Shown in pieces: positions 12,565-54,097 of a stretch of DNA of 64,000 nt. The position numbers were made by a program, and so were the translations under genes. The number at the start of each line of letters is the position of its first letter. Position 1 is the first letter of the stretch. The notes under the pieces are model-generated. The model was not told where the DNA came from. It did no database searches and saw only the letters and a list, made by a program, of their open reading frames with translations. The stretch comes from Ilyonectria destructans (Eukaryota; Ascomycota; Sordariomycetes; Hypocreales; Nectriaceae). Location: the NCBI GenBank assembly GCA_020740775.1, contig JAHEWK010000008.1, forward strand, positions 2,790,001-2,854,000. The letters run 5' to 3'.

Positions 12565-13404
12565 ATGTCTCACTTACAAAATGTGGCTAGCATTTACGGC
12601 AGATGGTTGGAGGCCGTCAATCATCGGGACTGGGTCAGCGCCTCAAACCAAATCGCCTCGGAACTGATTCGCAACGATGAGACAATCTCAAGCATCGCAT
12701 TTCTTCAAGGCTTGCAAAAGAGAACAGAAGCTATTCCAGACATCAAGACAGAGATCTTTATGGTTGTCGCCGACAAAACCTCGGGAAAGATTGCTTCGAT
12801 AATCACTCATAGAGGCACCCTAGTCAAGCCCTACAAGGGCTTTGAGGTGACTCGCGAGCAAATTGAGTGGTCGGAGTATGTCTTTTGCGAGTTCAAAAAC
12901 GAGAAGATGGACTCATATACCAGTTTGTCAGATTGTGATACTGCTGGAATCAGCAGCGCTCACATGTCAAACCCACCCATCTCGAATCGAGTAATCAACC
13001 AAAAGTGCGATCTTGGCCTTGAGATTCTTTATCAACAATACATTCACGCCATCAACACTCTTACGATGGCAGAACATTTCCCCAGTTACTGCCAGTCGCA
13101 GGTAGTTCACAACGGCAGACATCTGTCCATGGACGAGTACCGCGGTTTGATCGAATCTAGCTTCGAGGAGATTCAAGGGCTGCGGTTCACGATTGCCAAC
13201 TTGGTGGCAGACGAGGAGGCGCAGCGGATAGCAGCAAGGTTGGAATTCTCAGGGCGGCCCGTTACCGAATTCCGGGGTATTCAGCCCACTGGGAAAGAGG
13301 TCAACTTTTCCGAGCATGTGTTGTATGAGCTTGATGACGGAAAGATCGCAAGAGTATGGTCCGTGCTGGATTTAGACGCTTATCGAACAAGCTTGGAGAA
13401 TTGA
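12565..13404 (+). CDS. Tandem SnoaL-like (NTF2 fold) protein, polyketide/ester-cyclase type
   Basis: A single exon of 279 residues with two successive SnoaL-like halves (about 1-120 and 145-279). The second half is the clearer: LYQQYIHAINTLTMAEHFPSY..., then RIAARLEFSGRPV and GKEVNFSEHVLYELDDGKIARVWSVLD, the typical cone-shaped alpha+beta barrel signature with a final 'DGKIxxxWxxxD' strand. The first half shows the same order (YGRWLEAVNHRDW; ...EWSEYVFCEFKNEKM) but is more diverged. Single-domain relatives act as polyketide cyclases, isomerases or dehydratases in secondary metabolism, or bind small hydrophobic ligands. No polyketide synthase is in the window, so the role is open. Probably cytosolic. 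Confidence 0.8.
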   Translation: MSHLQNVASIYGRWLEAVNHRDWVSASNQIASELIRNDETISSIAFLQGLQKRTEAIPDIKTEIFMVVADKTSGKIASIITHRGTLVKPYKGFEVTREQIEWSEYVFCEFKNEKMDSYTSLSDCDTAGISSAHMSNPPISNRVINQKCDLGLEILYQQYIHAINTLTMAEHFPSYCQSQVVHNGRHLSMDEYRGLIESSFEEIQGLRFTIANLVADEEAQRIAARLEFSGRPVTEFRGIQPTGKEVNFSEHVLYELDDGKIARVWSVLDLDAYRTSLEN

Positions 13405-17558: not shown

Positions 17559-19073
17559 TCAAACGCAGGCCCATTTATCCAACCTTTCTGGTAACCAGCC
17601 ACTGGTGTGCTTCAACGACGTTTTCCTCTGTGACATTGCCGATGCAAAGCCCTGGCCCATAATCATCTTGTCGTCCATCTTGCACAAGTCCTCCACGAAT
17701 GTCCACTGAACGCAGTTGGACCAGCCCGTGCAAGCTGCCTGGCAAGCCTCAACCGACTCCCAACCCTTGTTCCAGAGATCCGCATTGTACGCGTCTTCTG
17801 GGTGCGGCGGTGCGTCTTTGTTGGCGGAGGTGACTTCATAGAGATTGGCCATGTTGTCCCACCACTCGAGCGGCTTCTGGATGCTGGGAAGAATCATTTT
17901 GGAGAAGAAGTCGCGATGAAGAAGCGGTTTCTGAAGCACGTTGTTAGTTCCACTATTAGAGAATTCGGCACAGAAAGACCATACCGAAAAGTCCCATGCC
18001 TTCTCCAACTCGTAGTACTGGGACACATCCCGATTGTGCACTTTGTGCCAAGACAACAAAGGATGGCACCAATTGTGCATGCTAAAGCCAAAGGTCCAGT
18101 GAACGACGGGATTAAATCCCCACGTGAACTTTCCGTCGCCGCCGTTCTCTCCAAACTTGACGCCGTACTTGTCGAGAGCGTGCGCGAGAACCTGGTCGCC
18201 ACAGCAGTGGTCGGCTGTGTACTCGTAATACTCCTCAGTCAGATTCGAGTTTTTGCCGAATGACGCCTCCCACGCGCCGCGAGACACGGCAAAGCCTGCG
18301 CCGCCATGGGCGAAGACCACATCGGACTTGGCCGCGTAGCTGCCCAGATATTGCGGCTTGCGCCAGTCAAAGGTCGACAGGTATGCCAGCACGTTGGGCA
18401 AGAACAGGTACGCGTCGTCTTCCATGTAGATGTACCACTTCGCAGCGGGCCAGTTCTCGCCCGCGTGCTGCATGAGCGGGATGAATTTGTACTTGTCAAT
18501 GATCCAACCGCCTGTCGGGCCCCATTCGTCGCCATTCACCCCGGCGGCTTCGGCATAGTAGTTGTTGGCCATGTACTCGGGCTGGTCGCGGTAGACGTCA
18601 AAGTCAGGCCTGGCCTTGGCTGAGTCTGTCATGTTTGCGAGCACGTCGATGATGTCGAAGCGGCCGATTGTCTCCGGGTAATCTGAGTAGACGACGACAT
18701 TGTCTGGGCTGATGCGTTCGCTAGCGAGGGTGGTGGTCAAATGGACGAGCAGTCGCTTCCACATGGTTGTGCCACCGGTTTTGACAATAAGCAGCACATC
18801 GTCTTTGGTGAGTGCTTCACCAAGAGGAACGTCCTTGAATGACTGTGTTGGAGCTGGAGGCTCCTCCGCGACAGCGCTGGTGTCGCTGACCGTCTCGTTC
18901 TGTGCCGGCGCATGCACAGGTTGCTCGGAATGTTGGGTCGGGTCTTCCAAGATCTCTGGATACACGCGCCCGTTGTTTCCTACGGACGGGTCAATCAAAT
19001 AGTAGATGAGTCCAATGCATAGCGCAATGATGACGGCCGGCACCAGGCGATTGTTTCGATACGTGACAATCAT
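17559..19073 (-). CDS. Type II membrane glycosyltransferase (Fringe/GT31-like fungal family) with C-terminal PAN-like region
   Basis: The ATG at 19073 starts a short cytoplasmic tail followed by one membrane anchor (about residues 9-27). A Pro-rich stem leads to the catalytic domain: VLLIVKTGGTTMWKRLLVHL, then WYIYMEDDAYLF with the metal-binding EDD at about 218-220, and GGAGFAVSRGAWEA. The C-terminus (WESVEACQAACTGWSNCVQW...) is a PAN/Apple-like Cys segment. A 54-nt intron at 17931-17984 (GTATGG donor, ACTAAC branch, CAG acceptor) has no stop and is a multiple of three; spliced length is 486 residues, unspliced 504. Fungal members of this group are Golgi enzymes of unknown sugar specificity. 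The neighbouring GT2 gene lies 1.4 kb away on the other strand. Confidence 0.88.
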   Translation of the reverse strand: MIVTYRNNRLVPAVIIALCIGLIYYLIDPSVGNNGRVYPEILEDPTQHSEQPVHAPAQNETVSDTSAVAEEPPAPTQSFKDVPLGEALTKDDVLLIVKTGGTTMWKRLLVHLTTTLASERISPDNVVVYSDYPETIGRFDIIDVLANMTDSAKARPDFDVYRDQPEYMANNYYAEAAGVNGDEWGPTGGWIIDKYKFIPLMQHAGENWPAAKWYIYMEDDAYLFLPNVLAYLSTFDWRKPQYLGSYAAKSDVVFAHGGAGFAVSRGAWEASFGKNSNLTEEYYEYTADHCCGDQVLAHALDKYGVKFGENGGDGKFTWGFNPVVHWTFGFSMHNWCHPLLSWHKVHNRDVSQYYELEKAWDFSVWSFCAEFSNSGTNNVLQKPLLHRDFFSKMILPSIQKPLEWWDNMANLYEVTSANKDAPPHPEDAYNADLWNKGWESVEACQAACTGWSNCVQWTFVEDLCKMDDKMIMGQGFASAMSQRKTSLKHTSGWLPERLDKWACV

Positions 19074-20526
19074 GACGGCCACATGGAAGATTCATCAAGC
19101 AGCTGAGTCCGGTTTGCGGACGACAAGAACCACAAAAGAGCGTGGTCGATGAGGTCAAGTATCACAGGCTGGCTCCAGTAGGGCTGATGCAGGGATCAAG
19201 GGGCAGCCTCCACCGGAGATGGATCTCGGTGATTTCCCAAACAGGTAGGCGACGGTTGAGGGAGATGTAATGCATGGCCCATGAGTATTTATTACGGCCC
19301 ACAACTGCTGCGGTATTGACAGGGGCTCTGTCTCATGACGCGGCTTCAACGGTGAAATTGGCTGTACTTCATTTGCAGATTGGTTATCGGCATCTCGGTG
19401 CGGCCCGGATGATCAAAACTCTCTTACTCGTGATCGCGAGAATACGAACAGATTCAGTAGAAGAGACTTCACGATTGCTCAAACTCACGAGGCCGCTAAT
19501 TTTAGTGTCAACTACTCTGCATACCACGTAGTATAATGCGCCACTGAGTCGGGAATGGACGGGTATATTGGTCTGTGCTAAGAAATCGGCCGAGTGCAAC
19601 GTCAACGTCCCCAGAACTCAAGGATCCCTCCCCTATTTCGTCCCACTCCGTATTTGTCACGAGTGCAGTGGACCGTTTTCGCACATTGTGAAGATGCACG
19701 CTCTTAGCGTGCGGCGAAGTCTCCGAGCCCACGGAGCCGTTTTCAATGAATGCAGATCATTGTCAGTTACGGAAGCCTAATCAACTTGACCGGACTAATC
19801 AAAGGCCATTATTGCAAGAAGCCCACTCCTTTTACCGAGTGACTCTTGGCAGGCTGTGTCACAAGGAAGGTCGTCGTGTTGATACCAGGCTTGGATTGCT
19901 CGAGCGCATGAAAATTGGTCCACAGCCGCTTTTCCCACCTATAGCTGCATGGTGCTATATTGAAGGGTCGTATTTTCGCGTTTGGCCCTATCGCGTTCAT
20001 CGCAGCCCACCCGCGCGCATGGGATTTTAATTCGGCGGTAAATTCCTAATATCGCAACGGCCGAAACAAGGCGGCCGCTGTCCCTCTTGTAGGGCTAAGG
20101 CAGATTTTTTACCCCTGGTATACGCATACGGATGGGGGGACTCCCGGCCGATATCCCAGCATCTCCAAGAATATTTTGGCTTCCCCAAGACGCGATTCCC
20201 AATGAGGAGCAACTAATAGGCCAGACCCTCGTATTCCCCAGGGTTCAGCGCTGGCATCTTTGACAGCTGTTACAGCCAAGAGCCGTGATGAGGCCATTCC
20301 ACTAAGGAATATTGCCTCCTGACGCTAAGGATGCCGCTGCAGCCGGCCTATTTACACTTCTGTGTGCGTCAGAGGGGAAGTTATTTTTATCTGCTTGAAT
20401 GAAAGATGTACTCTTTTACTCTCCCCTTATCTTCTCTTTGATACTCGTATACGTATCGCTTCTCTGTAGCAGCAACACATCGCAGGTGGTGACTCCTGTT
20501 CAGTGGCGGGTATCAACATCTCGACC
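19074..20526. other. Divergent intergenic region between the two glycosyltransferase genes
   Basis: 1.45 kb between two divergently transcribed genes, presumably holding both promoters. No gene or repeat seen. Confidence 0.6.
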
Positions 20527-22412: not shown

Positions 22413-24505
22413 ACGGTAAAGGGTAAACTAATAGATAGCGGCTCTGTGGATAGGACAGAGATCGCTGGGGCGCAAATGGATGGTGCTGCTTGGTCAATAC
22501 TTCCGATCAACTAGAAGACCTCTTCTTAACCTAGACACGGATAAAGAAAATAGACTCAAAAGTTCGATATCTAAAATTCGTTTCATAGGCAGCCGCGAGT
22601 ACGGACAAGTATCAATATATCGCGAGCATGCTACTAAGTCTCTCCCATCAGGTAGAAGCAAAGTCCCGTTATAGTAAGCGCTAGCAGTTGTGGCCAAAAG
22701 AAAATGATTCTAGGAATGTCATTAACTATCCTTACACGTCTAGTGGGAATAGTCGCTAGTAACGCTGGGCTGGAAATATCCGTAGGGCACGCTATGCGGA
22801 TCAAATTAGCCTCTTGTGAAGGATGAAAAAGAAGCACCATAGACAATAAACTCACGGCCCCGGATTACGACTAATATTGTAGGAAATTGGGTGTGTTGAC
22901 AGTTGCTTCGTCATATGCACCGCGGCGACCTTGCTTGTATCGTATGAGAACTCACTAGGAGCCTGCCTCTTAAACGCTGTGATGCCCGCTGTAGTGATGA
23001 CTTGGCTTGGTGCATCGATATTCTTCTGCAACTAGAAGATGAACATAGCCGCCTCGACTCTTAGTTTCGTCTGTCATCTAGGAGGCTTTGCGTAGCAGTG
23101 ATGCCGCGTAGGATGAGATATAGCTTTCCATATCTAGATAATATCAGTCAACGGACTACGGGACTTCTTCAATCGAGATGATGGAAAATTCCCGACTGCT
23201 TGCAAAAATCGTCCAACTTTTCCCTGCCAATGTCAAGGACGAAAACTTGTGTTCTGTTGACTTCGAGTGCGAAAGAAGGGCCCAAATCGATAGAAAAGCT
23301 CTATCTAGCTCGAGACAAGAGTCTGAAGGGGATCTCGGGCAAAGAAATCCTCATCTTGAATGGTGCTATCGATCCTCTCGTCCCTTCTAAGAGAGGTATG
23401 GTGCTAACAACAGGGTGACGTTTTTCGAATAAGAGGACAATGGGTATTGGGTGTCACATTAAATGATGGATAAGATTGTAGATTGGGTAATGGGGGTCTT
23501 GGCTTAGATCTCTAGATCTCTTGAACACGTGGCTGATGATTGGGTTGACTTTGTTAGACCTCTCGTCAATATCCTGCATCCTTATCGCGTTGGCAATGAG
23601 AAAAGCAGCTAGAATCCTACAGGCTGGGAGTTTTTGTTTACACTTGGACCGCCATTAATAGTTCCAGTGTCAGACATAGACGAGCATTGAGGATCTATCA
23701 GAACTTGTCTCGGGACACCTCACCGAGGCACCAAGAGATGAAAAAGTGGCCTTATACTTCTCAATATCCCAGACAGATTCGTTGAACAAATCGTTTTAAA
23801 ATGCGAAGTTGCTTGGAAAGTCCATAATTGGTCCATATAAGAGCCCATGGCTTAATTCGGGTAGTTGGCAAGTTCGAGTGGATTGGAAGGAAGAAAGAGA
23901 TGTAGCCAACAAGATCAACGATACTTTGGACACTATTAGGCTGACTCCATGCCGAACCGTGGGGGATGTGCATGCATCATACCGCGCTAGGCGGGATCGT
24001 TTGCGGGGAAATATCACCACGTACATCGCAAGTCTAGCAAGCAAGAAGTTTAAACTCCGTGTTAGGAAATGATTATTGCACCTTTAGCTACTATATTGAA
24101 ACGAATCAGGGAACCCCTTGAGTATTATGTAACAACAACTGGTCGGACTGTTGGATGGTTGTCGCTCCAGGGTAGTACCGGTAGAACCCCAACTAGAGCC
24201 AAGCCCATATTACTCGCTTCAGTTTAGTCTTGGGGTATTCCATCTACCGCGGTCGTTTGCCGCGTTGAAGCTAGTAGAACCCCGCTGAGTAGTCAGCGGA
24301 GCTTCGAATAGTCGTATCGGATATTCGGGTTTACGTGTACTTGACACGCCCCAAGTAAAACCCCAGCCATCTGCCACATATCGGAACTATCCTTCCGAGA
24401 ACTTATCACCTCGACATCTCTATACATCTGTACCTTTCAAAAGCCTATCAAACTCAACCGCGTATCACGTTGACGACAAATATCGAAATTGCCTCTTCTC
24501 TAGCC
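22413..24505. other. Gene-poor stretch with remnants
   Basis: Holds the hydrolase-like fragment at 23200-23395. Another open frame at 23809-24072 (SGSWQVRVDWKEERDVANKI...) lacks an ATG and is not recognised; it may be a relic exon. Confidence 0.5.
23200..23395 (+). pseudogene. Possible alpha/beta-hydrolase fragment
   Basis: A short open frame (about 23260-23395) reads EKLYLARDKSLKGISGKEILILNGAIDPLVPSKRG in two overlapping halves. The stretch GKEILILNGAIDPLVPS resembles the strand-and-loop that carries the catalytic Asp in alpha/beta hydrolases (ILxLNGxxDxLVP). Neither a nucleophile elbow nor a His is found in frame on either side, and the flanking frames are broken. It is followed by GTATGG, a possible donor. 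The likeliest reading is a gene remnant, or one exon of a gene that cannot be completed here. Confidence 0.3.
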
Positions 24506-25597
24506 ATGTCGAAGATTTCAGTACCGTCGGCGCAAAGCGCAATTGTCGTCAAGAAGCTGGGCAAAAAATGGAAGTTAGAAATCGACCGCTCCTACGCTAT
24601 GCCTAAACTTGAGCCGGGCCAAGCCCTTGTTCGGCTGTCACATACAGGAGTCTGCCATTCGGACCTCTCTTTGATCAATGGAGGATGGAATCGACAGATG
24701 ATTTGCGACGTGCCTGGACATGAGGGAGTAGGCGAGGTGGTGGCCTATCATGACGACACGGATCAGTCTACAGTGCCGCCGCTGGGCACCAAGGTTGGCG
24801 TTCCATTAATTCGACGCCCTTGTGGAACCTGCATGCCTTGCAAACTCGTCGACGGCGAAGTGCTCTGTCCCCACAGCGGGTTTAATGGTCTGGAGACCAA
24901 CGGGACATATCAGCAGTACATATCGGTATATACCTCGTACCTCGTGTTACTGCCAGAGTCGCCAACAATCGGAGACGCTCTTTTTGCCCCGGTACTCTGC
25001 GGAGGCGTCACCGCGTACAAGGCACTGAAGAAGTGTGGCGCCGGGAAGGGAGACTGGGTTGTCATTGCTGGAGCTGGAGGCGGACTGGGCAGCTTCGCGG
25101 TGCAGTACGGCGTAGCGATGGGCATGCGTGTTATTGGGATTGACACGGGTGAAGAAAAGAAAGAGGCGACGCTGAGACTCGGCGCTACAGCCTTCGTCGA
25201 CTACCGCGGAGAGGGCGAGGTGCCCCAGAGAGTCAACGATATTACCAACGGCGCAGGTGTTAAAGCCGCCGTCGTTCTTGCGCCCAGCGAGGTGACATAC
25301 AACCAAGCCCTGCAGTATGTTGGTTATCAGGGGTGCATCGTGTGCGTTGGACTTCCTCACGAGGACGTTCGGATGGCTGTGCCGCCAGGTCTTGTTATCC
25401 ACCGCGATATCACCATCCGTGGGTCCATGGTTGGCACCCGCAAAGATATTGCTGAGGCACTCGAGTATGTAGTTCGTGGGCTTGTGAAACCCGATGTGGT
25501 CGTCCACCATCCCGAGGACATTGTACAGATCTACCAGATGATGGAAAAGAATAATGTTGTTGGTCGAGCAGTGCTGGAATTCAGTCGTTTTAAATAA
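24506..25597 (+). CDS. Zinc-dependent alcohol dehydrogenase (MDR, fungal ADH1-like)
   Basis: A single exon of 363 residues from the ATG at 24506; the open frame begins earlier but without ATG. The catalytic zinc ligands are Cys50 (GVCHSD), His72-Glu73 (PGHEGVGEV) and Cys165. The structural zinc site is a Cys cluster at 106, 109, 112 and 121 (CGTCMPCKLVDGEVLC), with one residue more than usual before the last Cys. The NAD-binding motif GAGGGLG is at 189-195. Length and motif order match cytosolic tetrameric ADHs of the Adh1 type, which interconvert primary alcohols and aldehydes. It stands between the GT2 gene and an RTA1-like gene; a short direct repeat follows it at 25719. Confidence 0.95.
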   Translation: MSKISVPSAQSAIVVKKLGKKWKLEIDRSYAMPKLEPGQALVRLSHTGVCHSDLSLINGGWNRQMICDVPGHEGVGEVVAYHDDTDQSTVPPLGTKVGVPLIRRPCGTCMPCKLVDGEVLCPHSGFNGLETNGTYQQYISVYTSYLVLLPESPTIGDALFAPVLCGGVTAYKALKKCGAGKGDWVVIAGAGGGLGSFAVQYGVAMGMRVIGIDTGEEKKEATLRLGATAFVDYRGEGEVPQRVNDITNGAGVKAAVVLAPSEVTYNQALQYVGYQGCIVCVGLPHEDVRMAVPPGLVIHRDITIRGSMVGTRKDIAEALEYVVRGLVKPDVVVHHPEDIVQIYQMMEKNNVVGRAVLEFSRFK

Positions 25598-25718
25598 AGA
25601 ATCTTAGCACCGTTTGCATATCAAAGGTCCATTCTTGAATTCAAATGTAATACGAACATGGATGGCTGGAATGCAAGAGGTGAGGCCTGCAGAGCTTTTA
25701 TATCCATCAGGATTTTGC

Positions 25719-25784
25719 CTTTTCCAAGATCTAGCTTTTCCAAGATCTAGCTTTTCCAGCAGATCTAGCTTTTTCAAGATGCAG
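25719..25784. repeat. 16-bp direct repeat, about four copies
   Basis: Two perfect copies of cttttccaagatctag (25719-25734 and 25735-25750) are followed by two diverged copies, one with a 2-bp insertion. The array is in the 3' flank of the alcohol dehydrogenase gene, within about 120-190 bp of its stop codon, and could be transcribed in the 3' UTR. Confidence 0.9.
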
Positions 25785-26296
25785 CTGTTCCTGCAGCTTA
25801 TTGAGGTATTGGGAAAGGTAACCAGTTGGACTAGAAACCTTAGTCTGTTTGAGTAACTTTTAACCTTTAAATAGACTGGGTATATAGTCTGTATTATTGA
25901 TACTATTGTTGGTATTTCTTTTTACTGTTGAGCTTCTAGTCTCCCCTCTAGGTATGTGTGTACTAAGGCACCCTAACCTCTTGATAAATCTCTTCAAATA
26001 AAAGCAATAAATTTATTGACTCTTGCAGTTAGTCTTAAGCTCTTTATATGTCTCTGACATTAAGAAACTAAATCTCAATCAAAGAAAGCACAATGCCTCT
26101 TCCCCTCTGTCTGCAGCTACCTCTCCTTTTTATCCCCGAGATATCTCAGCTAGCGACCAGCTGGCCCAAATGTCCCCGACCGCCCGTGACATTAGCTTTA
26201 TTATTCTAAGGCTACACCCGTTGAGTCTATATTAGGGGATGATCGTAGAATAACTCTTACTCGGCCACTCCTTCAACCTTTTCCGCGGAATTTCCG
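25785..26296. other. AT-rich convergent spacer
   Basis: AT-rich DNA between the convergent ADH and RTA1-like genes, probably containing both 3' ends. No coding frame. Confidence 0.55.
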
Positions 26297-27311
26297 TTAC
26301 GCTTGGTTTGCTGATGGCCTGGCAGCTACAGAATACAGATCAACTGAGTTGTCATTCTCCGAGGTGAGGACCGACTTGTCTTCGGTCTGGATGATCTTGC
26401 CTGGGTGGAAGTAATTAAACATTGCAGCCACAACAAACATGAGCGCCGCATCGAAGACATAAAGATAGACCTCGCTGGCTAGTAGTGCCCCATCGCTTCC
26501 CATGACATACTCGGCAACTCTGAAGACCGACCGAATCATGATGAAAACGCTTGCAGCGTAGAGAACCCAAAGGAAGCGTTGCCAGAGCATCGTCGAGGAG
26601 TGCCAGGAGCTGGTTGGGGACGCAATGATGCGATAATGAAAGAGGCAGATGACAACAATGAAGACGCCGAAGAACGCAATCTGAATGGCGAGGCCTGCGA
26701 TGATGACGTTTTCGCCGAGCTTGACGCCACTCATTGACTTGGCACGGGCAAGAATAGCACCACCTGTAGTTTTCGGGTTAATTGTTTTTCATGGCAGATA
26801 CCTGAACCCGTGAGGAGACTTACCTCCACCTTGGGTTAAGAACGACAACACATCACCCAGGACGAAAAGCTTCGTTAGCCATTTCGGGTTGATTGCAGAA
26901 AGGTGCTCTGCGCTAAGCAGACGGATCAATCGACCCAAGACCATGTAAATGGAAGCAGCGAGTAGAGCTGGGCCGAGGAGGAGCGTGAGGCTCTGGATCG
27001 TGAACGACCGGGTGGACCAGTTCGGGGTTTCTGTCGCTGACAACGCACGCCCTATGTATCCCACAATGTCAACTGAAAAACGGCAGATATTAGCATCGAG
27101 GAGCGAAACTTGGTAGTGGTCGAGACTTACAGATGCAGCCGACGAGAAAAGGTATGAAGTACCAAGCCCGCAGCTTGATGACTTGCCAAAGGTGTAACAA
27201 TGCGGAGATGCCGAAAAGAACGATGAAAATTACGGCCGCGGCGAGGGAAGGATCATAGTGATAGAATACGAACTCGCCCGGCTCTTCTCTCGGAAGGTGT
27301 GCAGAGGACAT
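26297..27311 (-). CDS. RTA1-like seven-transmembrane protein (lipid-translocating exporter family)
   Basis: Exons 27311-27131, 27072-26824 and 26763-26297 join through introns of 58 and 60 nt (GTAAGT donors at both), giving 298 residues. Family signatures appear in order: FDIVGYIGRALSA after the first junction, then FTIQSLTLLLGPALLAASIYMVLGRLI, KLFVLGDVLSFLTQGGGG across the second junction, and MIRSVFRVAEYVMG with EVYLYVFDAALMF near the end. These match the RTA1 domain, including the R-x-x-E motif. Seven hydrophobic segments fit a plasma-membrane protein. Yeast relatives give resistance to 7-aminocholesterol (Rta1) or move long-chain bases (Rsb1). The Zn2Cys6 regulator is divergently placed about 730 bp away and may control it. 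Confidence 0.93.
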
Positions 27312-28041
27312 GATTCGGTGATATCTGAGGGATGGAGAATGTTGCTGTGATGTTGATTTGGACCTTGGCGCTGAGAAGTCGTGACGTTTGAAGCACGGCT
27401 GGGTTGATGTCCTGGGGTTTTATAGATCTGTCACGACTCTTCGATGAGTGAGATGTGGTGCAAATTAAGTTTGATAATGGCTTGCAACGTCATGGTTGCT
27501 TGGAGCCCTTGGCCGGTGCTGAGGCTGTGCTAGCTACATGGTGTTATCTTCCGGGGATGGGTTTTTAAGGAAATGGTCTAGCTCTCCTCTGACTAATAGC
27601 ACTCGGCCTGGTACCCAAAAATAACAGAAGAAATGCCATCATGGAAGCGTCGCTAAGCAAGCATCGTAAAGGACGAGATCTCTTTGGTTGTGTCAAGGTT
27701 TCAGCAGGGATGATTTGCCGACAGAACAACCACCAGACTAATTGTGCCAAGTATATGAATTCCTTTATTCGTCCGTGATAAGACCACACGCACACTCAAA
27801 TAAAGCCAAGTGGCCCTGGCGCCTCCCGGCGGAACGCGTCCCGAGTCGTTGCGGAGTTACATTTCAGGCGGACTTTCCCCAGCCCCCTCTTATTTAAGTA
27901 GCGGCCAACCACGGCAAGACGGCTGCTCGGATTCACGCTGCTGTCAATTGCTGCTCGGATTGGAAAACGGCCTAGAGGCATTCTCCCTAGGCACAATCTC
28001 CCCGCAACGACCTCTGGAATCAACCCATGCTCATCGGCCTG
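27312..28041. other. Divergent promoter region, RTA1-like / Zn2Cys6
   Basis: 730 bp between divergent genes. Possible CGG-type triplets for a Zn2Cys6 protein occur but none forms a convincing inverted pair. Confidence 0.45.
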
Positions 28042-29315
28042 ATGGCAAGGATTGGGCACAAGAAGTCCCGGAACGGTTGCTCCCGCTGCAAAGAACGAAA
28101 GGTCAAGGTGTGAAGAGCCCCATCAGGATGCCGGGCATGCCGAGCATGTTGGAGACGGCCACTGACCCCTAGAAGTGCGACGAGCGACGTCCATGCGGCG
28201 CCTGTGTCAAGCTCCACGACTGTTGCAGCCTTCTGCCGTCATCTGGCAAGATCAATGCGGCATCCAGCGGTCAAACTCCTCCGGATGCGAGGGCAAAACG
28301 ACGGAAAGAGATTGTGCTGGCCGCTGCTAGTCCCACGCCTCCTCGAACCAATCTCGCAGATCCATTCCATCCAGTGTTCGTATCAGAACCGTTCTCACAT
28401 ATAGCCCAACCTAGTGTGGGACTTCAACCTGAGCAGGCATTCAACTGGGCCATGGACCTTGGCTTGATGAACCACTACACCTCCCTCACATCCGGAACCC
28501 TGCCAGGAGCTAGCCTGCGAGTATGGCAAAGCGAGATACCCAAGGAGGCCATTTCATACCCGTTCCTCATGCACCAGATCCTCGCAGTCTCGGCATTCCA
28601 CCTTGCCAGCCTTCAGCCGTCTCGGAGCCAGGTACATTTCACCCAAGCTCTCCAACATCAGCAGCACGCAATCTGCGGCATCAATGCAGAGGTCTCTAGC
28701 GTCACCTCCGGCAACTGCCACGCGCTCTTCGCTGCATCCTCGCTGTTGTTCATTGGGGTATTCGCCGCCTCCTCTCCAGCCCTGCACAAAGCCCGCCAGT
28801 GCGAAATGGACAACATGATCGATATTTTCACCCTCATCCAAGGTGTCAGCGGCATTCTAGGCTCTTCCAAGAAGGATATCCAGCAGGGATCACTTGGAGA
28901 TTTCATGGATTGCGTTCCTCATCCGATAGAATCCAGGCTACTCAATATACTCCTTGAGAAGATTCCTGAGATCCGTCGAAGTTTTCATGGAAACAGTACC
29001 CAAGCTCTAGCAGACGAAGCAGTTGTCGGCCTTCAGGAAAGTATTGGCAGAGCTTTAACTACAACTCCTGAGCTTACCGTTGCTATTATCTGGCCCATGA
29101 CCCTGAACGATGGCTTTCTTGCTCTGCTGCGCGAACGCCACCCGGCTGCCCTGGTCATCGTTGCCCATTATTGCACAGTCCTTCACGCTGCAGGGTCGGA
29201 CTACTGGTTTATGAGAGGATGGGGACGCTGCGTTGCTACTGCGATTGCGGAGTGTCTTACGCCACCGTGGAAGGAGTACATCGAGTGGCCCTTAGCCTAT
29301 ATTGATGAAGCCTGA
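28042..29315 (+). CDS. Zn2Cys6 binuclear-cluster transcription factor (UPC2-like subclass)
   Basis: Exon 1 (28042-28107) encodes MARIGHKKSRNGCSRCKERKVK. The intron starts GTGTGA at 28108 and ends at a tandem acceptor, TAG-AAG. Using the second AG (exon 2 from 28176) gives the canonical C-x2-C-x6-C-x5-C-x2-C-x6-C with Cys13, 16, 23, 29, 32 and 39, and a protein of 401 residues. Using the first adds one Lys. The body (QPEQAFNWAMDLGLMNHYTSLTS..., FLMHQILAVSAFHLASL) follows the pattern of fungal C6 proteins annotated as sterol-uptake-control-like. Nuclear, DNA-binding. The RTA1-like gene is divergent from it and the MDR gene follows it, so both are candidate targets. Confidence 0.9.
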
Positions 29316-29554
29316 GAGCTTGCGTTTTCTTTCGGATACTGTATTCCTGGTGGCAATAACAGATTTGTTACCGACATAATTAGCGGGCGGAAATTACGGA
29401 GTACTGACTGGGTCTGTTGGAGCTCGTTCGAGCTTGTCTCAATCACTTAATTAAATTCAACACATTCGTCACTAAATCGCGATGATGTGTATGTTCTCAT
29501 TGGACCAGGATAATATGCATTAGCATCGTTGAATCATCTTCATTGGAGAGATTG

Positions 29555-29726
29555 GATCCTTCAAGTTTTGAATCCGAACCCGACAAGATCTAACACAAAT
29601 CAGGAAAGGCGCCCAACTGAGCCCATCGGAGTTCGGTTTGAGATCTCTGAACAGATGTGATCCTTGTAATCCGAACCCGAGAGTATCTATCATTAATTAG
29701 GAAACGCCCGCCAGTCCCTCCGCTGG
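29555..29726. repeat. Imperfect ~97-bp tandem duplication
   Basis: The block that starts gatccttcaagttttgaatc and contains aatccgaacccga recurs about 97 bp later as gatccttgtaatccgaac. In both copies it is followed by a taac/tatc stretch, an 'aat-agg-aaa' motif and gcgcccaactg or cgcccgccagt. The copies share order but are clearly diverged. The block sits between the Zn2Cys6 gene and the promoter of the MDR gene. Confidence 0.7.
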
Positions 29727-29978
29727 GTGCAATAATGGTTGGCGGCGATTCGTAAGCCATGTTGTTCGTCATTTCCTTTCCTCGTCAAAATACGAACAAC
29801 GACTCGGAGCCTCATCATCGAAGCTCCTCCTTTAGCAACCTGTCGCCCTTTATTTGACATCCAACTTTGACTTTCGCGTCCCACCTTTCTCAATGCCAGT
29901 CAAAACTGCCACGCCAAACTCTAGGTTGTCAACTTCCATCACCTTCAAAACGGATTGACTGCTCAATTCCTCGCAAAA

Positions 29979-30983
29979 ATGCAAGCCTGGCAATACACAA
30001 CCTTAAAGGATACGCTAGAGGGCTCCCTCGCTCTCAACGAGACTGCTACTCCTCCCGATGCATCCTCGCTAGACAAAGACCATGTTCTTATCGAAGTCAT
30101 CACGGCAGGCATCAACCCCGTTGAATATAAACTTCCAGAGATGCCCATGTTCGGGAAATTCATGGTGCAGCCACCTGCTAGTCCCGGCCTCGACTTCTGC
30201 GGCCGTGTGAAGGCGAAACATGCCACAAACGAATCCGTCACCGAAGGCCAGCTCGTCTTCGGCGCCTTGAGCATTGCGACAAAATTCCCCAAGTTCGGCT
30301 CTCTTGGGCAGATCATTGTTGCGCCATGTTCCCAAATCACACCTCTTCCCAATGGCGTTGATCCCGACGGTGCTGCAGCTGTGGGCACAGCCGGCGTGAC
30401 AGCCCTGCAAGCCCTTCCCCGGGACATCGTCAAGCGGGGATCGAAAGTCTTCATAAACGGCGGCAGTGGTGGAGTGGGCAGCTTCATGGTGCAATTCGCA
30501 AAGGCTCTTGGGGCTGAGGTCACGACGACGTGCTCCACGGCTAATGTGAAGCTCTGCCGCAGCATCGGAGCTGACGAAGTTATTGACTATCGACAGACAG
30601 ATATCCTCGAAGCATTGAAACAGAAAGGGCAGGTTTTTGACCTTGCTGTCGACAATGTTGGCGTCCCAGCCGACCTATACGAACGGAGTGATCTATTTCT
30701 GAAGCAGGGCGGCACGTTTTCGCAGGTTGCAATGCAGAAATCAGTGGGCGCCATGCTTCGCAGGAGCATCTTGCCAGGATGGCTTGGAGGTGGACGGAGA
30801 ACACTTCGCACCGTGAGGGTGAAGATCAACGAGGACGATTTGAGACAAATTGGCCAGTGGATGGCTGAAGGACGGGTTCAAGCCGTGATTGATGAAAGGT
30901 TTGAGTGGAAGGACGCCCCGAAAGCGTACAAGAAGCTTAGAGGAGGAGGTACGGTGGGGAAGATTGTGGTTCGTCATCTCTAA
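29979..30983 (+). CDS. Zinc-free MDR oxidoreductase (quinone oxidoreductase-like)
   Basis: A single exon of 334 residues from the ATG at 29979 (MQAWQYTTLKDTLEGSLALN). The N-terminal GroES-like half has VLIEVITAGINPVEYKL, where the zinc-dependent enzymes have their Cys, and SPGLDFCGRV. The Rossmann half has the NADP-binding motif GGSGGVGSFMVQFAKALGAEV and ends GGGTVGKIVV. There is no structural-zinc loop, so this is a quinone reductase or enoyl-reductase-like member (relatives include TOXD and reticulon-4-interacting protein types). It probably reduces quinones or enones with NADPH; the substrate is not known. It lies 660 bp after the Zn2Cys6 regulator in the same direction. Confidence 0.93.
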   Translation: MQAWQYTTLKDTLEGSLALNETATPPDASSLDKDHVLIEVITAGINPVEYKLPEMPMFGKFMVQPPASPGLDFCGRVKAKHATNESVTEGQLVFGALSIATKFPKFGSLGQIIVAPCSQITPLPNGVDPDGAAAVGTAGVTALQALPRDIVKRGSKVFINGGSGGVGSFMVQFAKALGAEVTTTCSTANVKLCRSIGADEVIDYRQTDILEALKQKGQVFDLAVDNVGVPADLYERSDLFLKQGGTFSQVAMQKSVGAMLRRSILPGWLGGGRRTLRTVRVKINEDDLRQIGQWMAEGRVQAVIDERFEWKDAPKAYKKLRGGGTVGKIVVRHL

Positions 30984-34039: not shown

Positions 34040-35152
34040 CTATAGCTCTAAGTCTGAGAACCAATCGGGGATCCCATCCACCCAAGTCGTCAACATCTCC
34101 ACGGCCCCTGGGGGAACCCCAACGAACATTCCCAAGAGGCTCAGTGCTGTCGGGATGAATGGAAGGAACCTGCGGAGCCCGCTGGTCTTTCGCTTAGCCT
34201 CTGTCTTGATCTCCTCCTTTACCTCCCCTGCAACGTCGGTGTGTAGACTGACCTGTTGCTTCTCCGTCTGCAGTAGCTGCTCACGTCCACGCTCAAAGTC
34301 TAGCTGCAACTTACGCCGCATTGCGCGGTCTTGCTCCTGTAAATTCTGTCGCATCTCCTCGAGTGATTCTAGTTGCTGCAGGTACTGCTTGCGTATCTCA
34401 CCAAGGTCCTTGCTGACATAGGATCCAGCCTCGGTCTCGTCCAGCTTCTTGCCTTCGTTGATCATCTCATGTTGGAGACGAAGCACGATAGGCTCCTTGA
34501 TGACGAGTTGGCTGATGAGGGCAACGGCCGATGTGCGGTCGCCGTGGAAGCGGCTCATGAGCGAGCCGCGGCCAACCATGTACGCCCAGAAGTCGTCCCG
34601 AAGTTGGCGCTCTCGTGATGCTCCCGTTGGTTCATCAACCTCGTGCCAGCGGGTCGTGGTCAATAACACATTGGGAAGTGCGGTTTCACCACATATTCTC
34701 TTGAAGATCTCAAATGTCTTGACCGCGGAACCGCAGTAACGAATGTCGGTGATTCGGTGGACATAAATTATGCCCTTGAGCTCGAATCCGAGTCCATATT
34801 GTGCTGCAAGTAGCCTTGCAATTTCGTTCAAGATCTCAGCATCTGATCGCTTCGTATCGTCAAATCCCGGCGTGTCAATCAATAGGACCTTGGTGTTGCC
34901 GATATCCACCGGAACCATTTGACATTCTTGCGTGCCTATAGATAATATTAGCGACATGATATTTGTACGATTTCAGTGAGGCTTCTGGGTCTACTCACAA
35001 GCCTCCAAGTCGGCGCCCTCTTTGACGACCTCTCTTCCCGCCAACTTGTTGATGAGGTAGCTCTTTCCGGAGCCTGTAACCCCCATCACCACCACCATGC
35101 TCATGCCATTGACCCGAGGGGGGGATGGAGTCTGTTCCTCCGAATTGTCCAT
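34040..35152 (-). CDS. P-loop GTPase of the AIG1/septin-like type with coiled coil and C-terminal hydrophobic segment
   Basis: Exons 35152-34999 and 34935-34040 join across a 63-nt intron (GTGAGT donor, TATAG acceptor), giving 349 residues. G1 is GVTGSGKS (24-31). G3 is DTPGFDD (72-78), reconstituted just after the splice. LPNVLLTTTRW is at the usual G4 place but with a TTRW-type motif instead of NKxD, as in many fungal AIG1-like GTPases. A long helix from about 200 to 270 (LEEMRQNLQEQDRAMRRKL) is a strong coiled-coil candidate. It is followed by a hydrophobic stretch (FLPFIPTALSLLGMFVG) that could touch membrane. Such proteins oligomerise in plant and animal defence, but fungal roles are unproven. 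The Hsp70-like gene is divergent, 1 kb away. Confidence 0.88.
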
Positions 35153-36167
35153 ATTGTCTGCGAAGTAGACAGTAGTTGATGCAAGAAACTGGAATTGGAG
35201 GTGCAAAGTGAGTACGCGAGAGTCAAAGTATAAGGACCCCGAGTTTTGTGACAATCCAAGCTGGGTCGGAGATAAGTCAGAGGAGATTACGGTATGTAAA
35301 TCAAAGAGGCTGTGAAAGCGAGTACAATCACTGAGCCAGGAACTAAGATAATCAAGTGACCGTCTTCGGCCCTCAGCCGGAAATAGCGAAACCCCTAGAT
35401 TCAATACTATGGGGCCCCGTAGCCTGTTTTCGTGTGGTAAGGCATTTGCCTCCATATGGCGTCCAATAGCGTCTAAGTGGCTGACTACCTCAACCATTTG
35501 CAGCCGTAACGTGGAGTGTTGGTATGAGACCGCAGCCAGATATTGCGGGGCGAGGCTCTGAGCCACTATACATGTGTGGTACCTCATAGAAGAGGTTAGG
35601 GCAATTATACAGCCTTGCCGTGCAAAGTTTGGAACCGTGCTAAGTGCCACCATTTGCGACGTGACCCAATCTCGGGCTGTCTTGGATCGTCTTCCTTCCC
35701 TGTCAATAGGCTCACCCTCCACATCCGCCCTCACAGCAAGTTTTAGGCTCACTTCAGCCGCACAAGGTTTGTGAGCCAGTGGCTGGCAAGACAGACCCAA
35801 TAAACCGGAGACAGGTTTCGTTAGCTGACTCAAGATGCCGAAAAAGAAAACTTGGGAGGACTGATGAGTGTGGCGGTATCCGGATCGCTCTAGATCCTGC
35901 TAGGGAATGTCAGCATGGCAGCTGATCACAGCCAAGTTGTTTGGAGCTACAGCCGTAACTATTTCGGTTTCATCTTTAACAATCCGGCGATTTACCCTCT
36001 CCGCTAGTTAGTCTCCACCAGGTGCTTTACATTGTCCTGTGTTTTTCTTGAGTGCCTACCCGTCCTCAAGCCTCCTGTCAACCGTGGATTTACCCTGCTT
36101 CTCACCCCAGATCTTGGCATATCCTCCAAATCAAATCCCCACGTTAATTTCCTCTTGATTCGGCAAG
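35153..36167. other. Divergent spacer between the GTPase and Hsp70-like genes
   Basis: The minus strand is open in the GTPase frame for a further ~227 codons upstream of its ATG (to 35833), with several internal ATGs (e.g. MVEVVSHLDAIGRHMEANAL). It may be chance or an N-terminal extension. Confidence 0.45.
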
Positions 36168-48646: not shown

Positions 48647-51600
48647 ATGCGTTATTTGCAATGGCTGGCGGCTGGCGCGGTCCTGCCACTCGTCCTGGGG
48701 CAGGCCACGGGCAACACCATCTGTTTCCAACAGACTTCGGCCGACTCGCCAGATCCCTCTACGCTCGCTGGTTTCTTGGCTCCCGCAATCTCGGCAGCCT
48801 GTGACAAGTTCGGGGCGCCACAGGCCTCCGCCGAGCCTGCACAGTTCAACTCGTCCGGATATCTCTTCGTCAGGTTCGACCTTGAAGGCGTCACGAGCCG
48901 TGACGAGTGCGCCTCGGCCTTCGCATCCATCGTCGGCCAATGTGTCCAGCCGGCGTCTTCGGCCACGTACTTTGGCGGACAGTGGTCCCCTAACCTCAAG
49001 CTATTCTACCTCATCACCAACGTCGCTTACCCTGAGGATCCCCTCAACAACAGCCAGCCGCAGCAGCCCGCGTCGTCAACCACCCAGTCAACTTTGACCA
49101 CTACATCTCGCACCTCCTCTTCTGCAACTACTAGCACTACAGCACCACCCGTCTCAAATGACGATCCGGGAGATGAGGCCATTGCTGCGGCTGCCGCCAT
49201 CGCAGCGGCTGCCGCTTTCTGTCTTGCATTTGCCGTCATCCCCGGCGTAAATCTTGTCACCGCCGTGGCCGCGGTAGCAGCCGTTGAAGCCGCGGCACCA
49301 GGCAAGCAGGCTCCATCTGCTTTACTCCCCATCTGCTAACTTGAGAACTTGTACTAGTCATGAACCAGGTCATGAGGCCTCTTCCGCCATCCTCGGCAGT
49401 GACTCGACTCCGTGGCGCAATGCAAGCCGTCCGGTTCGCGGCGGTAGTGACGCGTGGTTTTCCAAACCCGATAGCTGCCACCATGTTGGTGGCGACATCG
49501 GCCGTCGTCATAGAAGCGGCTGCAGAAGTGGCCAAGGAGGCAAACGAGCATGAGGAGCAGCAAACTTCAGACTCTAATTCGCAGTCTTCGTCGACTACTT
49601 CGAGCACGCCCTCGGCTACCCCTTATATAGTGGCAGTAGACCAGAGCTGGCCTGACCTGCTAATCAACGCCGCTGTTGAAGCCTTTCCGGATGGCGGAGA
49701 AGGGCATCTAGAGGAGTTTGAGCACCTCGGTATCAAGACTTATGTCACTACCATGGCAGACGACGAGGCCCAAGGGCTTGACATATTGCCTCTGTGGACA
49801 TTTATCCTCCAGAACCGCGAGACATTCAACTACGGCCGGGGCGATGTCGCCTCATCGAGCGTTGCGCGGAAGCGAGACGCTGTCAACCCCGTTCATGGGC
49901 GAAGCAGCAACGACATCGGTACGAACGCAACGCAAACTGAAAACGGCTGGGGAACTGCATCCGCTGTCCGGAGGGCCGGCCCTCCTTTCAACAGTATCTT
50001 TCCAAAAATCGACAAGCTAAGCTACAATCGCGAGACAAATCCCTCGAGACATCTACCCCTGCTATCGCGGAAAGTTCCCGCCAGTGGGGAGATCCCAGAT
50101 GACCTGGATCGGTACTACCACCTTGACAAGGGCGGACAAGGGGCCACGGTCTATGTTCTTGACTCTGGCTTCGGCATGCCATCCACTGAAGACGTAGGAC
50201 CAGCAGCCATTTCCAGCTCAATGTTTGAAGGTGTCATTAACTAATCGTCAACCCCAGGAATTGACGACGTTTTTCGACGGCAAAGTCGAGGTTCGAGCCA
50301 TCAAACAAAACGACCTCAAAAACCGTCTCGATTGCGACGTGACCAAGGTGCCAGATGAGATACCATCCCCGGACACGTACGACCGCGCGGATGGAGCAGG
50401 CCACGGCACGTGTGTTGCGGCCGTGGTTGGATCTTCTGAGTTCGGAGCGGCTCGGGGCGTCAACATCGTGTCGTTCCGAGAGAGCCATCCGGGCTGCTCC
50501 TTGACGCACAAAGGCATCCTGAGCATATTCAACGACATTATTGCCGACGTCAAGGCAAAAGGCCTCCGCAAAAAGGCCATCATCAACTTATCCTCGAGTA
50601 AGTCTCCACAATTTGTGGGCTGCCATGCCAGAACCAAGAATCACGGACTGATTATATGCTCGACTGTCAGCGATGGAGGTGGCTGATAACGTAAAGCAGT
50701 TGAGGTCGCAGGATGCGATGTGGAGGATAATTCTGGAGACCCTGGTCAGGAGCGACGTTATCCTCGTCGCCTCCGCAGGCCAGGGCTTTCAAAGGAGCAC
50801 CGGGGAGACTGTACCGGCAACGGAGGTTAGGTTCAAGTTCCCAGGCAAGCTCGTGACCCTCGACTACCCGTATGTCAATAGGGGCAACGCCGTCATTCTC
50901 GTGTCCGCCATCGACGAGGGCCCGCCCGAGACCGTCGGCCTACACCCGGAAGCCAACTACGAGAACGACGTGGAGACGCGGATCGCTGTCTATGCGCGCT
51001 GGCAGGCTGCATGCTTCAGTAAGAACGCGTTACAGAGTCAAATGGCCGGCACGTCGTTTGCAGCGCCGGCCGTGTCCGGCGTGATAGCAGAGTGGCTCGG
51101 CAACGATGCGATCCGCGCGGCGATTGAGGCCTTCCCGGAAGGCGACACATTCTCGCACAAGGTGCGCAATTTCCTACGCAAGGTGTCGGTTACGCACAAC
51201 CCGGGTCAACCGCGAGTCAACTGCGTCTACAACGGTTACCGAGACCACCCGTGTTACTCCTGGTGGCGGTCCTCCCGACAGCGTGATGCAAGGGGAAAGC
51301 CAAAGGTCATGGCTCGGGCTGGCCCGGTAGACGAGCCGGCGGTGGTAGACGGAACCATAGTCGACCCAGACTACGCCAGTTCCTCGGTGCGTATAGTCCA
51401 CTGCCCTCCTATCCCACTGCCCTCATATGCAGATATACATATCCGTAGGGAGTATGCGGTGACTGATTGACATAGACTTGCCCACCTCGCACGACCAGTA
51501 CATCTATCGAGACGACGGATGGACCAACAGCTTCCAGCACTACCTCGGCGAGCGTGCCACCATCAACTTCGACCACTTCTCTACTGACAACAACCCTCAA

Positions 51601-54097
51601 GCCGTCGACGAGCTCAACCACAAGGCCGACCACGACAACATCGACCACATCAACATCGACCACGTCAACATCAACCACTTCGCTATTGACAACAACCCTC
51701 AAGCCGTCAACGTCAACGTCAACGTCAACGTCAACGTCAACGTCAACGAGCTCAACCACAAAACCGACCACGTCAACAACCGCGGTCTGCGGCACCATCA
51801 GCTGCGACGACTGCACCGGTAGCTTTTCCGCAGGCGGCAAGACAAAGGCCGTATGCACTAAAGGTCCGTCGGCCGGATGCCAGTGCGTCCCCACGGCACG
51901 AACCTGCGGCGCGGCGGCGACGTGCGACGGCGATGGGTGCGCAGGCGCATGGGACGCCGGCGGCTTGAACGCGACCTGCCGAGTCAACTACTCGCCGTGC
52001 GTGTGTCTCCCGTCCTCTAATACGTGCGGCCCGGCGTCGGCGCGAAGCTGTCAGGCGGCGAACTGTCAGGGCACCGTCGACTCCTCGACCGGGTTGGCGA
52101 CGTGTAAGACAGCCTTCAAGGGATGCGGGTGCACCCCGACGTGCACGCTCAGGCAGCCCTCGATAGCAGGCTCGTCGAGCGTCAGCCTCAACGTGTACAG
52201 CTCGTCCTGTTGCGATGCGCAGCCGCTGGAGACGTTGACCCTGGCCGACTCGGGTGTCTGCCGCCGTGTGAGCGCCTCGTTCCGCGGCGTCACGCAGGCC
52301 GTCGGCAGCGACCTCTTTGGCCGCGGTATCAAGGTGCATCTGTTCACCGACGACGCCTGCCGAGACGCGCAGCCGTTCGTCATGGGGCTCACCAACACGC
52401 CGGGCTGCACCAACGCGGCGGGCTCGGCCTGGCGGAGCGTGGTGTTGTGGGACGGCAATACAACGCCTCCATCTCCGCCTCCGCCTCCGCCTCCGTGCGG
52501 CGGCCACACGCCCGTCAACCCGGGCGCGAACCCCTCGACGGTGCAGGTCGGCTTCTACAGCGACGGCAGCTGCTGCGACGACATCGCCAACACGACTATC
52601 GGCATCGGCGGCGTCGACTCGTGCCGCAGCCTGGCCAACAACATGGCCTGGTCGACGCTCCGTATGGCGCCGGGCAACAACCTGATCGGCACCGGCTACA
52701 ACATCGAGGTGTTCCGTCAGGCCGCCTGCGTCGACTCGGCCGGCTACTACGGCGTTGACAACCTGAACCACTGCAAGACCGGTGGCCCGTTCCGGAGCTT
52801 CCGCCTCGTCGTCGCCCCGGCGCCGACCTGCAGCGCGCCGCCGTCTCCGGGGAGTGCCGATACGGCTGTGCTCCGCCTGTACCGCGACTCCTCCTGCTGC
52901 CAGGCATTCCAGACCACGGCCATGACGGTGGGTCAGTGTCTCGGCGTGTCGGCCGGCTTCACCAGCTTCCGCCAGGCTGCCGGGACGAATCTGGTTGGCC
53001 GCGGCATCAAGGCCTACGTATACACTGACGCGGCCTGCAGTGCCTCGGGTGCGCAACTGCTTGACGTGGCCAACGACAACACCTGCTGGGCCGACGCCGC
53101 GGCAGGGTGGAAGGGCATCAAGCTGGTGGCTCCCTGTGCCGGCCAGCCTGCGCCGACCGACCCGTGGGCCGTGACGTTGTCGCTGTTCCGCGACTCGTGC
53201 TGCGTGCCCTTCCAGACGACCACCGTCGGCCGCGACCGCTGCATCGCCGTGTCATCCGGCTTCACCAACTTCAAGCAGGGTGTCGGCGCCAACCTGCTGG
53301 GCCTCGGCATCAAAGTATACCTCTTCACCGACTCGGCATGCTCAGCGGCCGGCGCCCTGGTCGTCGACGCCATCAATGCTAATGCCTGCTGGACGGGCGG
53401 AGTGACTTGGAAGAGCTTCAAGTACGTCACGCCGCCGACATGCGCGCCAGGGCCCAGCAACGCCGGCGGGAATGCCAACACGGCGGCCATGGCCTTGTTC
53501 GGCGGCGGTGACTGCTGTACGGGCGTCGGCACGCTCTCCAACATGCTCGTGGGCGGCTGTCGTAACAAGCCGCAATCAGCCGGCTTCGATTCGCACAAGA
53601 TCCAGCTGGGCTCCAACCTGCTCGGCAAGGGCCATACGCTCGTCACCTTCACCAACACAGGCTGCACCGGCAATTTCTACTCGTACAGTCTCGGCAGCGC
53701 CAACGCAGATATCTGCCGCTACGGCGACACCGTCAAGAGCGCCCTCATCCTGCCGCCGGCGCGCCAGCTCGATCAGGGCCGCATCACCCAGGAGCGCGGC
53801 TACGGCGAGTTCGTGTGGGTGCGCGGAACGAACCCGTGCCGCGCCGCCTGGCCGCTCGGCTCCTCCACCGTCTGCGCCGGTGGGCGGTTCGTCCTCGACG
53901 TCCCTGGCGGCCGGGCAATGTGGTTTGAGGGCTGCGGTTCGACTGATCTGAACGTCATGGCCGACGCCCAGCCGGACTCGGACGGCCGCTTCTACGCCCA
54001 CTGTTCGTCCGCGTACCAGGGCAGCATCGCCACGTGCGACACGACAAAGGGTGATTTGTTTAATGGCTATGTCGAGCGGTACTACACGTGTGTGTAG
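48647..54097 (+). CDS. Giant modular secreted subtilisin-like protease with Cys-rich tandem modules (predicted 1,700 residues)
   Basis: Five exons (48647-49246, 49369-50193, 50258-50597, 50671-51386, 51476-54097) join in frame; introns of 122, 64, 73 and 89 nt have donors GTAAAT, GTAGGA, GTAAGT and GTGCGT. Order: signal peptide (MRYLQWLAAGAVLPLVLG); N-terminal domain to about 150; Ser/Thr linker and Ala-rich hydrophobic part; a second Ser-rich stretch; subtilase S8 domain about 455-740, with Asp465 (YVLDSGF), His524 (GAGHGTCVA) and Ser717 (AGTSFAAPAVSG). Then come a Thr/Ser linker (828-925), three ~40-residue Cys modules (930-1046), five ~90-residue CC repeats (1061-1584) and a C-terminal Cys domain (1595-1700). 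Probably an extracellular or wall-bound protease. The first junction is the least certain: without it there would be two genes. Confidence 0.8.
51476..51781 (+). repeat. Thr/Ser linker with duplicated block and GTCAAC hexamer array
   Basis: A ~75-bp block (ctactgacaacaaccctcaa ... gagctcaaccacaa) occurs at about 51582-51632 and again at 51682-51770. In the second copy it is split by about seven tandem GTCAAC hexamers (51704-51747). In the protein frame both are Ser/Thr-rich (TSTSTSTS), a typical O-mannosylated spacer. The hexamer keeps the frame whatever its copy number, so linker length can vary freely. Confidence 0.85.
51782..52132 (+). repeat. Three tandem ~40-residue Cys-rich modules
   Basis: Within the giant protease gene, residues 930-964, 969-1003 and 1009-1046 each have the order C-G ... 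C ... C-x-G ... C ... G-C-x-C, e.g. CGTISCDDCTGSF ... GCQCVPT. Six to seven cysteines per unit suggest small disulfide-knotted folds. Similar short Cys repeats occur behind Ser/Thr linkers in other secreted fungal hydrolases, where they may bind wall polymers; that function is inference. Confidence 0.8.
52175..53746 (+). repeat. Five tandem ~90-residue CC-repeats in the giant protease
   Basis: Units at about 52175-52444, 52535-52807, 52859-53122, 53165-53422 and 53477-53746. Each starts with a hydrophobic strand and Cys-Cys (LYRDSSCC, LFRDSCC, FYSDGSCC), then a Cys in 'GxCxxVSxGFxxF', a 'GxNLxGxGIKxYxFTDxAC' core and a final Cys-Trp...WKxxKLV strand. Units 3 and 4 are the most alike, and units 2 and 5 the most diverged. 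A Pro-rich spacer (PPSPPPPPPPPC) separates units 1 and 2. I do not recognise the domain. Confidence 0.85.

Follow-up and report, generated by a model that had tools for sequence, protein, structure and literature searches.

A 64,000-nucleotide stretch of the Ilyonectria destructans genome (contig JAHEWK010000008.1, positions 2,790,001 to 2,854,000, forward strand; hereafter the window) contains a gene at 48647–54097 (+) whose five predicted exons give, in spliced translation, an open frame of 1,722 residues. A subtilisin-type (S8) protease domain with its Asp, His and Ser motifs and a tail of three cysteine-rich (Cys) modules and five copies of a six-cysteine repeat (the CC repeat) form a single predicted reading unit, and the CC repeat is also found on Alginate_lyase2 proteins. 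The favoured explanation, to which we give an even chance, is that a new glycan-binding-type module, arrayed in tandem, tethers an S8 protease to a glycan-rich matrix.

The frame starts with an ATG at 48647, with A at −3, and its stop codon is 54095–54097. All exon joins are predictions from sequence. The gene model is the following:

48647–49301 (+): exon 1, with the start codon, a putative signal peptide, the N-terminal domain, a Ser/Thr linker and most of a hydrophobic stretch
49302–49357 (+): intron 1, GC-AG; the corresponding intron of a paralog, in the same phase, is GT-AG
49358–50193 (+): exon 2, with the end of the hydrophobic stretch, the pro-region, dibasic sites and the start of the S8 domain
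50194–50257 (+): intron 2, GT-AG
50258–50597 (+): exon 3, the portion of the S8 domain with the catalytic His546 (50402–50404)
50598–50670 (+): intron 3, GT-AG
50671–51386 (+): exon 4, the rest of the S8 domain, with the catalytic Ser739 (51054–51056) and Gln648 (50781–50783) at the apparent oxyanion-hole position
51387–51475 (+): intron 4, GT-AG; stops are met if it is retained
51476–54097 (+): exon 5, with a linker, the Cys modules, the CC repeats, the C-terminal domain and the stop

A preliminary description of this DNA had proposed a subtilase of about 1,700 residues in which protease and Cys-rich tail are one reading unit. Introns 2, 3 and 4 lie as given there and the spliced frame is open, and the single unit is further supported by the paralog, by a Hypoxylon texense protein and by the CC repeats on Alginate_lyase2 proteins. 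The fourth junction, left unplaced in that description, is best assigned to the GC-AG intron 1 (donor CAG/GCAAGC at 49302–49307, CTAAC, TAG end). Since 46 frame-keeping choices are listed for this stretch, the placing relies on site context and on the GT-AG intron of the paralog. Intron phases are 1, 0, 1 and 0 in both genes. At 873 codons, exon 5 outruns every open stretch met in 300 first-order Markov sequences matched to its composition (longest per sequence: median 250, maximum 569). On this ground, and on that of the ratio of nonsynonymous to synonymous substitution (dN/dS) against the paralog, a chance open frame in GC-rich DNA is rejected.

The tail occupies exon 5, and the three Cys modules and five CC repeats proposed earlier were recovered in it:

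51476–51781 (+): Ser/Thr-rich linker, 66% Ser+Thr over residues 891–975
51782–52144 (+): three Cys modules (51782–51895, 51896–52015 and 52016–52144)
52142–52456 (+): CC repeat 1
52496–52816 (+): CC repeat 2
52829–53134 (+): CC repeat 3
53135–53434 (+): CC repeat 4, the copy modelled
53441–53758 (+): CC repeat 5
53762–54094 (+): C-terminal Cys domain, common to the paralog, with no local alignment to the last domain of the H. texense protein

The five CC repeats are genuine, with all ten pairs outscoring every one of 500 shuffles (z 6.3 to 24.2). Across the 23 CC copies collected here, six cysteines in the order C-CC-C-C-C are present without exception. The tail is absent from Pfam and NCBIfam: no family of either database matched the CC repeat, and neither the tail nor a metagenomic lyase protein that carries the repeat had an NCBIfam match. 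Against the PDB, the tail gave one chance-level row as a single sequence and another as profile A4; profile A2, that of the Cys modules, gave none with E allowed up to 10. A Saposin match of the Cys modules (15.3 bits) fell under the cut-off of 22 and was rejected. The window protein and the paralog have three Cys modules each, and five further ones lie in a 993-residue Ser/Thr-rich open frame (C45:652686–655667; L024 687–3668, +) with no Pfam match. The last domain of that frame shares 30% identity with the C-terminal end of the H. texense subtilase.

The distribution of the CC repeat suggests a possible role in carbohydrate binding. In the fungus's own genome (71.7 Mb, 74 contigs), where counts are lower bounds, queries made from the tail and the protease half uncovered the paralog. 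CC-repeat queries met at least three genes: the paralog, the window gene itself and, on another contig, an open frame of 457 codons (C67:846284–847654; L023 2285–3655, −). Pfam assigns the latter to Alginate_lyase2 (PF08787, E 4.7e-45); its best PDB match is glucuronan lyase 7nde (E 1.7e-58), and it carries one CC repeat at its C-terminus, after a Ser/Thr-rich stretch. Moreover, a profile search spanning proteins of about 240–750 residues returned the window's own protein and a metagenomic protein of 585 residues (P0003), in which Alginate_lyase2 is followed by three CC repeats. These two proteins share the CC module with the subtilase, but their catalytic domain is of the lyase type. A module common to two classes of extracellular enzyme is a frequent first sign of carbohydrate-binding modules (CBMs). 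As in CBMs, the CC repeat is a discrete module appended to carbohydrate-active enzymes; its position at the end of two Alginate_lyase2 proteins therefore makes it a candidate CBM, although it is not filed here as a CBM member.

The whole architecture is kept in two predicted genes of this genome and in one of H. texense, and at the level of sequence it is real. The paralog (C45:3567121–3572858) lies on another contig and, by our own model, has 1,797 residues, the identical domain order and four introns whose places and phases match those of the window gene. Its identity to the window protein is 45% over residues 1–218, 42% over 219–470, 38% in the S8 domain and 39% over 781–849, followed by 38% in the linker, 67% in the Cys modules, 42% in the CC repeats and 30% in the C-terminal domain. 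By region, dN/dS between the two genes is 0.13 to 0.43 (Nei–Gojobori), partly unreliable with a dS of 1.15–4.45 that is near saturation in several regions; it was not computable in the linker.

The preliminary description had suggested looking for the same architecture elsewhere, and it was found in H. texense. The 1,722-residue query returned a single protein, hypothetical protein Hte_012559 (2,014 residues, with a Pfam S8 match; E 2.4e-193), deposited as one predicted chain. Its N-terminal domain, hydrophobic stretch, dibasic sites, S8 domain, Ser/Thr linker, Cys modules and CC repeats follow the same order, and residues 1–218 of the window protein are 34% identical to it. It differs in its length, in having two Cys modules (counted by eye) and eight CC repeats, and in its non-aligning C-terminal domain. 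In NCBIfam it was met by a mycosin subtilase model alone, rejected at 15.6 bits against a cut-off of 278.75. The number of CC repeats thus varies across the three subtilases, with five in the window protein, six in the paralog and eight in H. texense. With the tail alone as query, no protein other than that of the window was recovered. About 8,000 candidates, within length limits, were scored in each of the three homolog searches, and words from the Ser/Thr linker may have crowded out others, a coverage too narrow for calling the architecture rare.

Structure prediction of one CC repeat had likewise been suggested in the preliminary description. The AlphaFold2 (AF2) model of CC repeat 4 (pLDDT 88.3, pTM 0.78) suggests a beta-gamma-crystallin-like fold, at the level of a moderate match. 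Among the 50 VIA rows listed, 44 are crystallins by title (clostrillin counted) and 4 are X409/StcE, while Foldseek placed MiAMP1 at rank 1 and WmKT at rank 5 (E 0.06 and 0.48). The CC repeat differs from proteins of this fold, such as the Abundant Perithecial Protein of N. crassa (5z6e), WmKT and MiAMP1, by its constant six-Cys pattern. The usual Ca-binding motif of microbial beta-gamma-crystallins, (N/D)(N/D)x(S/T)S, occurs in 0 of the 23 CC copies, which sets the repeat apart from the Ca-binding members. Judging from a reference title, a bacterial GH64 protein reportedly carries a crystallin domain. The X409 module of StcE is bacterial, present in a single copy on a metalloprotease and 11% identical to the CC repeat, so the likeness is an analogy of use and not of membership. 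X409 reportedly gives the enzyme its mucin binding, and its removal leaves catalysis unaffected (PMC8249670).

A matrix-tethered protease is favoured because the paralog and the H. texense protein keep the domain order, and because of the Alginate_lyase2 proteins with CC repeats, the invariant six-Cys pattern, the AF2 model, the X409/StcE rows and the variable repeat number. Under this explanation, one gene would give rise to an exported multi-module S8 protein whose pro-region would be cut by a kexin-type enzyme at RKR or RR. Its Ser/Thr linker may be O-glycosylated, and each CC repeat would hold three disulfides. In the central step, the CC repeats would bind glycans, with their number (5, 6 or 8) setting the avidity, and the protease would act on proteins embedded in a glycan-rich matrix, for instance a wall, sheath or slime that the fungus or some other organism has produced. 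As the CC module is found on a glucuronan-lyase-like protein, a uronic-acid-containing matrix is the foremost candidate ligand. The wall-directed or host-directed role proposed in the preliminary description is still a conjecture.

More tentatively, the CC repeat could be an undescribed CBM family with a disulfide-rich, Ca-independent crystallin fold, arranged in tandem on a fungal subtilase and present once or three times on lyases of the glucuronan type. The protease could then belong to a new S8 subgroup whose oxyanion hole is altered and which breaks down proteins within a glycan matrix. Should the CC repeat bind glycans, it would represent a new module family, traceable by its C-CC-C-C-C pattern. 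The fungus would then equip a protease as it equips a polysaccharide-degrading enzyme.

The protease half and the region that precedes it contain the following features:

48701–49060 (+): N-terminal domain, residues 19–138, weakly like the fungal lectins LDL and GBD_Y3
49867–49875 (+): RKR, residues 389–391, a possible kexin-type site
49969–49974 (+): RR, a second dibasic site; dibasic sites lie in this same region in the three proteins
50134–51095 (+): Peptidase_S8 domain (PF00082), residues 478–752, split by introns 2 and 3

PF00082 matches the window domain taken alone with E 4.7e-12 (46.3 bits against a cut-off of 21.8), the paralog domain with 36.9 bits and the whole H. texense protein with 23.5 bits. 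The whole window protein, by contrast, gave no PF00082 match with E as high as 1. When the genome was scanned exon by exon with Pfam S8, neither the window gene nor the paralog was among the 50 matches listed, and surveys based on PF00082 may therefore overlook this group. The catalytic motifs are Asp487 (50161–50163) in YVLDSG, His546 in GHGT and Ser739 in GTSFAAP, and all of them are kept in the three proteins. The S8 domain is divergent (33–39% identity to the window's), and the best PDB match of a three-row S8 profile is Alkaline protease 1 (8gko; E 1.1e-8), a proteinase K-like subtilase. The Asp, His and Ser motifs are common to that group, whereas the oxyanion Asn is apparently replaced here and the chain reaches 1,722 residues with its tail. 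The proteinase K-like group has an I9 propeptide, according to a survey (PMC5371821); in the three pro-regions, by contrast, Pfam gave no Inhibitor_I9 match at E up to 10, although a divergent propeptide could escape such a search.

Published in 2017, that survey covers fungal subtilases and lists I9, Fn3-like, P-domain, galactose-binding-like and ankyrin regions as companions, with no crystallin-like or Cys-rich tail among them, as far as its accessible part goes (PMC5371821). Most serine protease families comprise single-domain proteins, according to another study (PMC5567314). No title among the papers listed dealt with this architecture, within a coverage that is thin for subscription journals. 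The preliminary description had called the architecture undescribed, which agrees with the absence of such a tail from the accessible parts of the surveys; however, the architecture is not unique, because the same plan is deposited as the H. texense hypothetical protein.

The N-terminal domain offers a lead to a lectin and nothing firmer. Its Pfam E values are 0.11 for LDL (window), 0.086 for GBD_Y3 (paralog) and 0.19 for LDL (H. texense), with 12.3–13.9 bits under cut-offs of 27–28, and unrelated Pfam families match it about equally weakly in two of the three proteins. A PDB profile search gave no lectin, and the AF2 model (pLDDT 50) was too poor to use. The assignment was rejected on these grounds.

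Some observations qualify the reading of an exported, active protease. The preliminary description had called the protein secreted, and this was not confirmed: the N-terminus has a short hydrophobic core (hydropathy 2.45 over 11 residues), and a hydropathy of 1.6 over 19 residues is reached in H. texense only and in neither the window protein nor the paralog. A longer stretch of high hydropathy (residues 175–221; window 49169–49365, spanning intron 1) is conserved, peaking at 2.46 here and at 2.65 and 2.56 in the other two proteins. Both the window protein and the paralog have it as a strongly hydrophobic, Ala-rich segment with IPGV at its centre, and H. texense has a comparable stretch. It could form a membrane hairpin, so membrane attachment is possible; because dibasic sites lie downstream of it in all three proteins, release by a kexin-type enzyme is possible as well. 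A BrkB match of this stretch (9.6 bits against a cut-off of 33.7) was rejected. Moreover, the expected oxyanion-hole Asn, which we take to be the position of Asn155 of subtilisin, appears as Gln, Thr and Gln in the window protein, the paralog and H. texense (ASAGQ, ASAGT and ASGGQ). The register comes from the local motif and our own alignment; the two PDB profile alignments shown do not extend over it, and one alignment gives the paralog a gap at the site. AAGN is the usual motif there, and it was read in the one locus (L007) of the eight other S8 loci of the genome where a motif scan could read the site. Given a correct register, the enzyme could be a weak catalyst or could work through a changed oxyanion hole.

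The apparent change raises the question of whether such a subtilase cuts. A pseudoprotease, or a very slow protease, would use the S8 fold as a scaffold or binding unit, with the tail as an adhesin or matrix protein. The three apparent substitutions and the divergence of the S8 domain speak for it, but the catalytic motifs are kept in all three proteins and the S8 region shows a dN/dS of 0.24 against the paralog (with an unreliable dS of 2.85), and we consider it unlikely, if the most serious of the alternatives. It is improbable, in turn, that the CC repeats are antimicrobial or membrane-active modules freed by the protease part, in the manner of MiAMP1 or of WmKT, a killer toxin with a crystallin fold. 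The Foldseek ranks of these two would suit that idea, as would the reportedly wide spread of the crystallin/WmKT fold, as a family, among orphan candidate effectors of fungi (PMC10462633). However, the Foldseek E values are just 0.06 and 0.48, and tandem arrays in a single chain, together with the Alginate_lyase2 link, suit binding better.

We hold it equally improbable that the protein is a structural component of a wall or sheath, cross-linked through its repeats and Cys modules, with a protease that acts on itself only. The Cys modules of the 993-residue frame, and the likeness of its last domain to the H. texense C-terminus, are in its favour, but a structural role is less likely for a module that also occurs on lyase-type proteins. 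Finally, it is very improbable indeed that the gene model is a false fusion or that the two halves are separate genes. The introns are drawn from sequence, with many frame-keeping choices at intron 1, and the paralog's join is likewise our own model; yet the matching introns of the paralog, the single H. texense chain and the stops met on retention of intron 4 lead us to reject this alternative, short of RNA data. A separate start for the Cys-rich part, raised in the preliminary description, is also disfavoured, since exon 5 has no in-frame Met until its residue 303 (window 52382), within CC repeat 1.

The window has other features outside the subtilase gene. An open frame at 12511–13404 (+) has two SnoaL-type stretches (PF07366) in one protein, and a Fringe-like frame (PF02434, E 3.3e-6) lies at 17559–19091 (−). 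At 24359–30983 (+), a Fungal_trans_2 frame is flanked by two zinc-binding dehydrogenase frames, possibly a small cluster. Two adjoining frames at 34040–35899 (−) have no Pfam match at E 1e-4, and the upstream one contains a P-loop-like GVTGSGKS.
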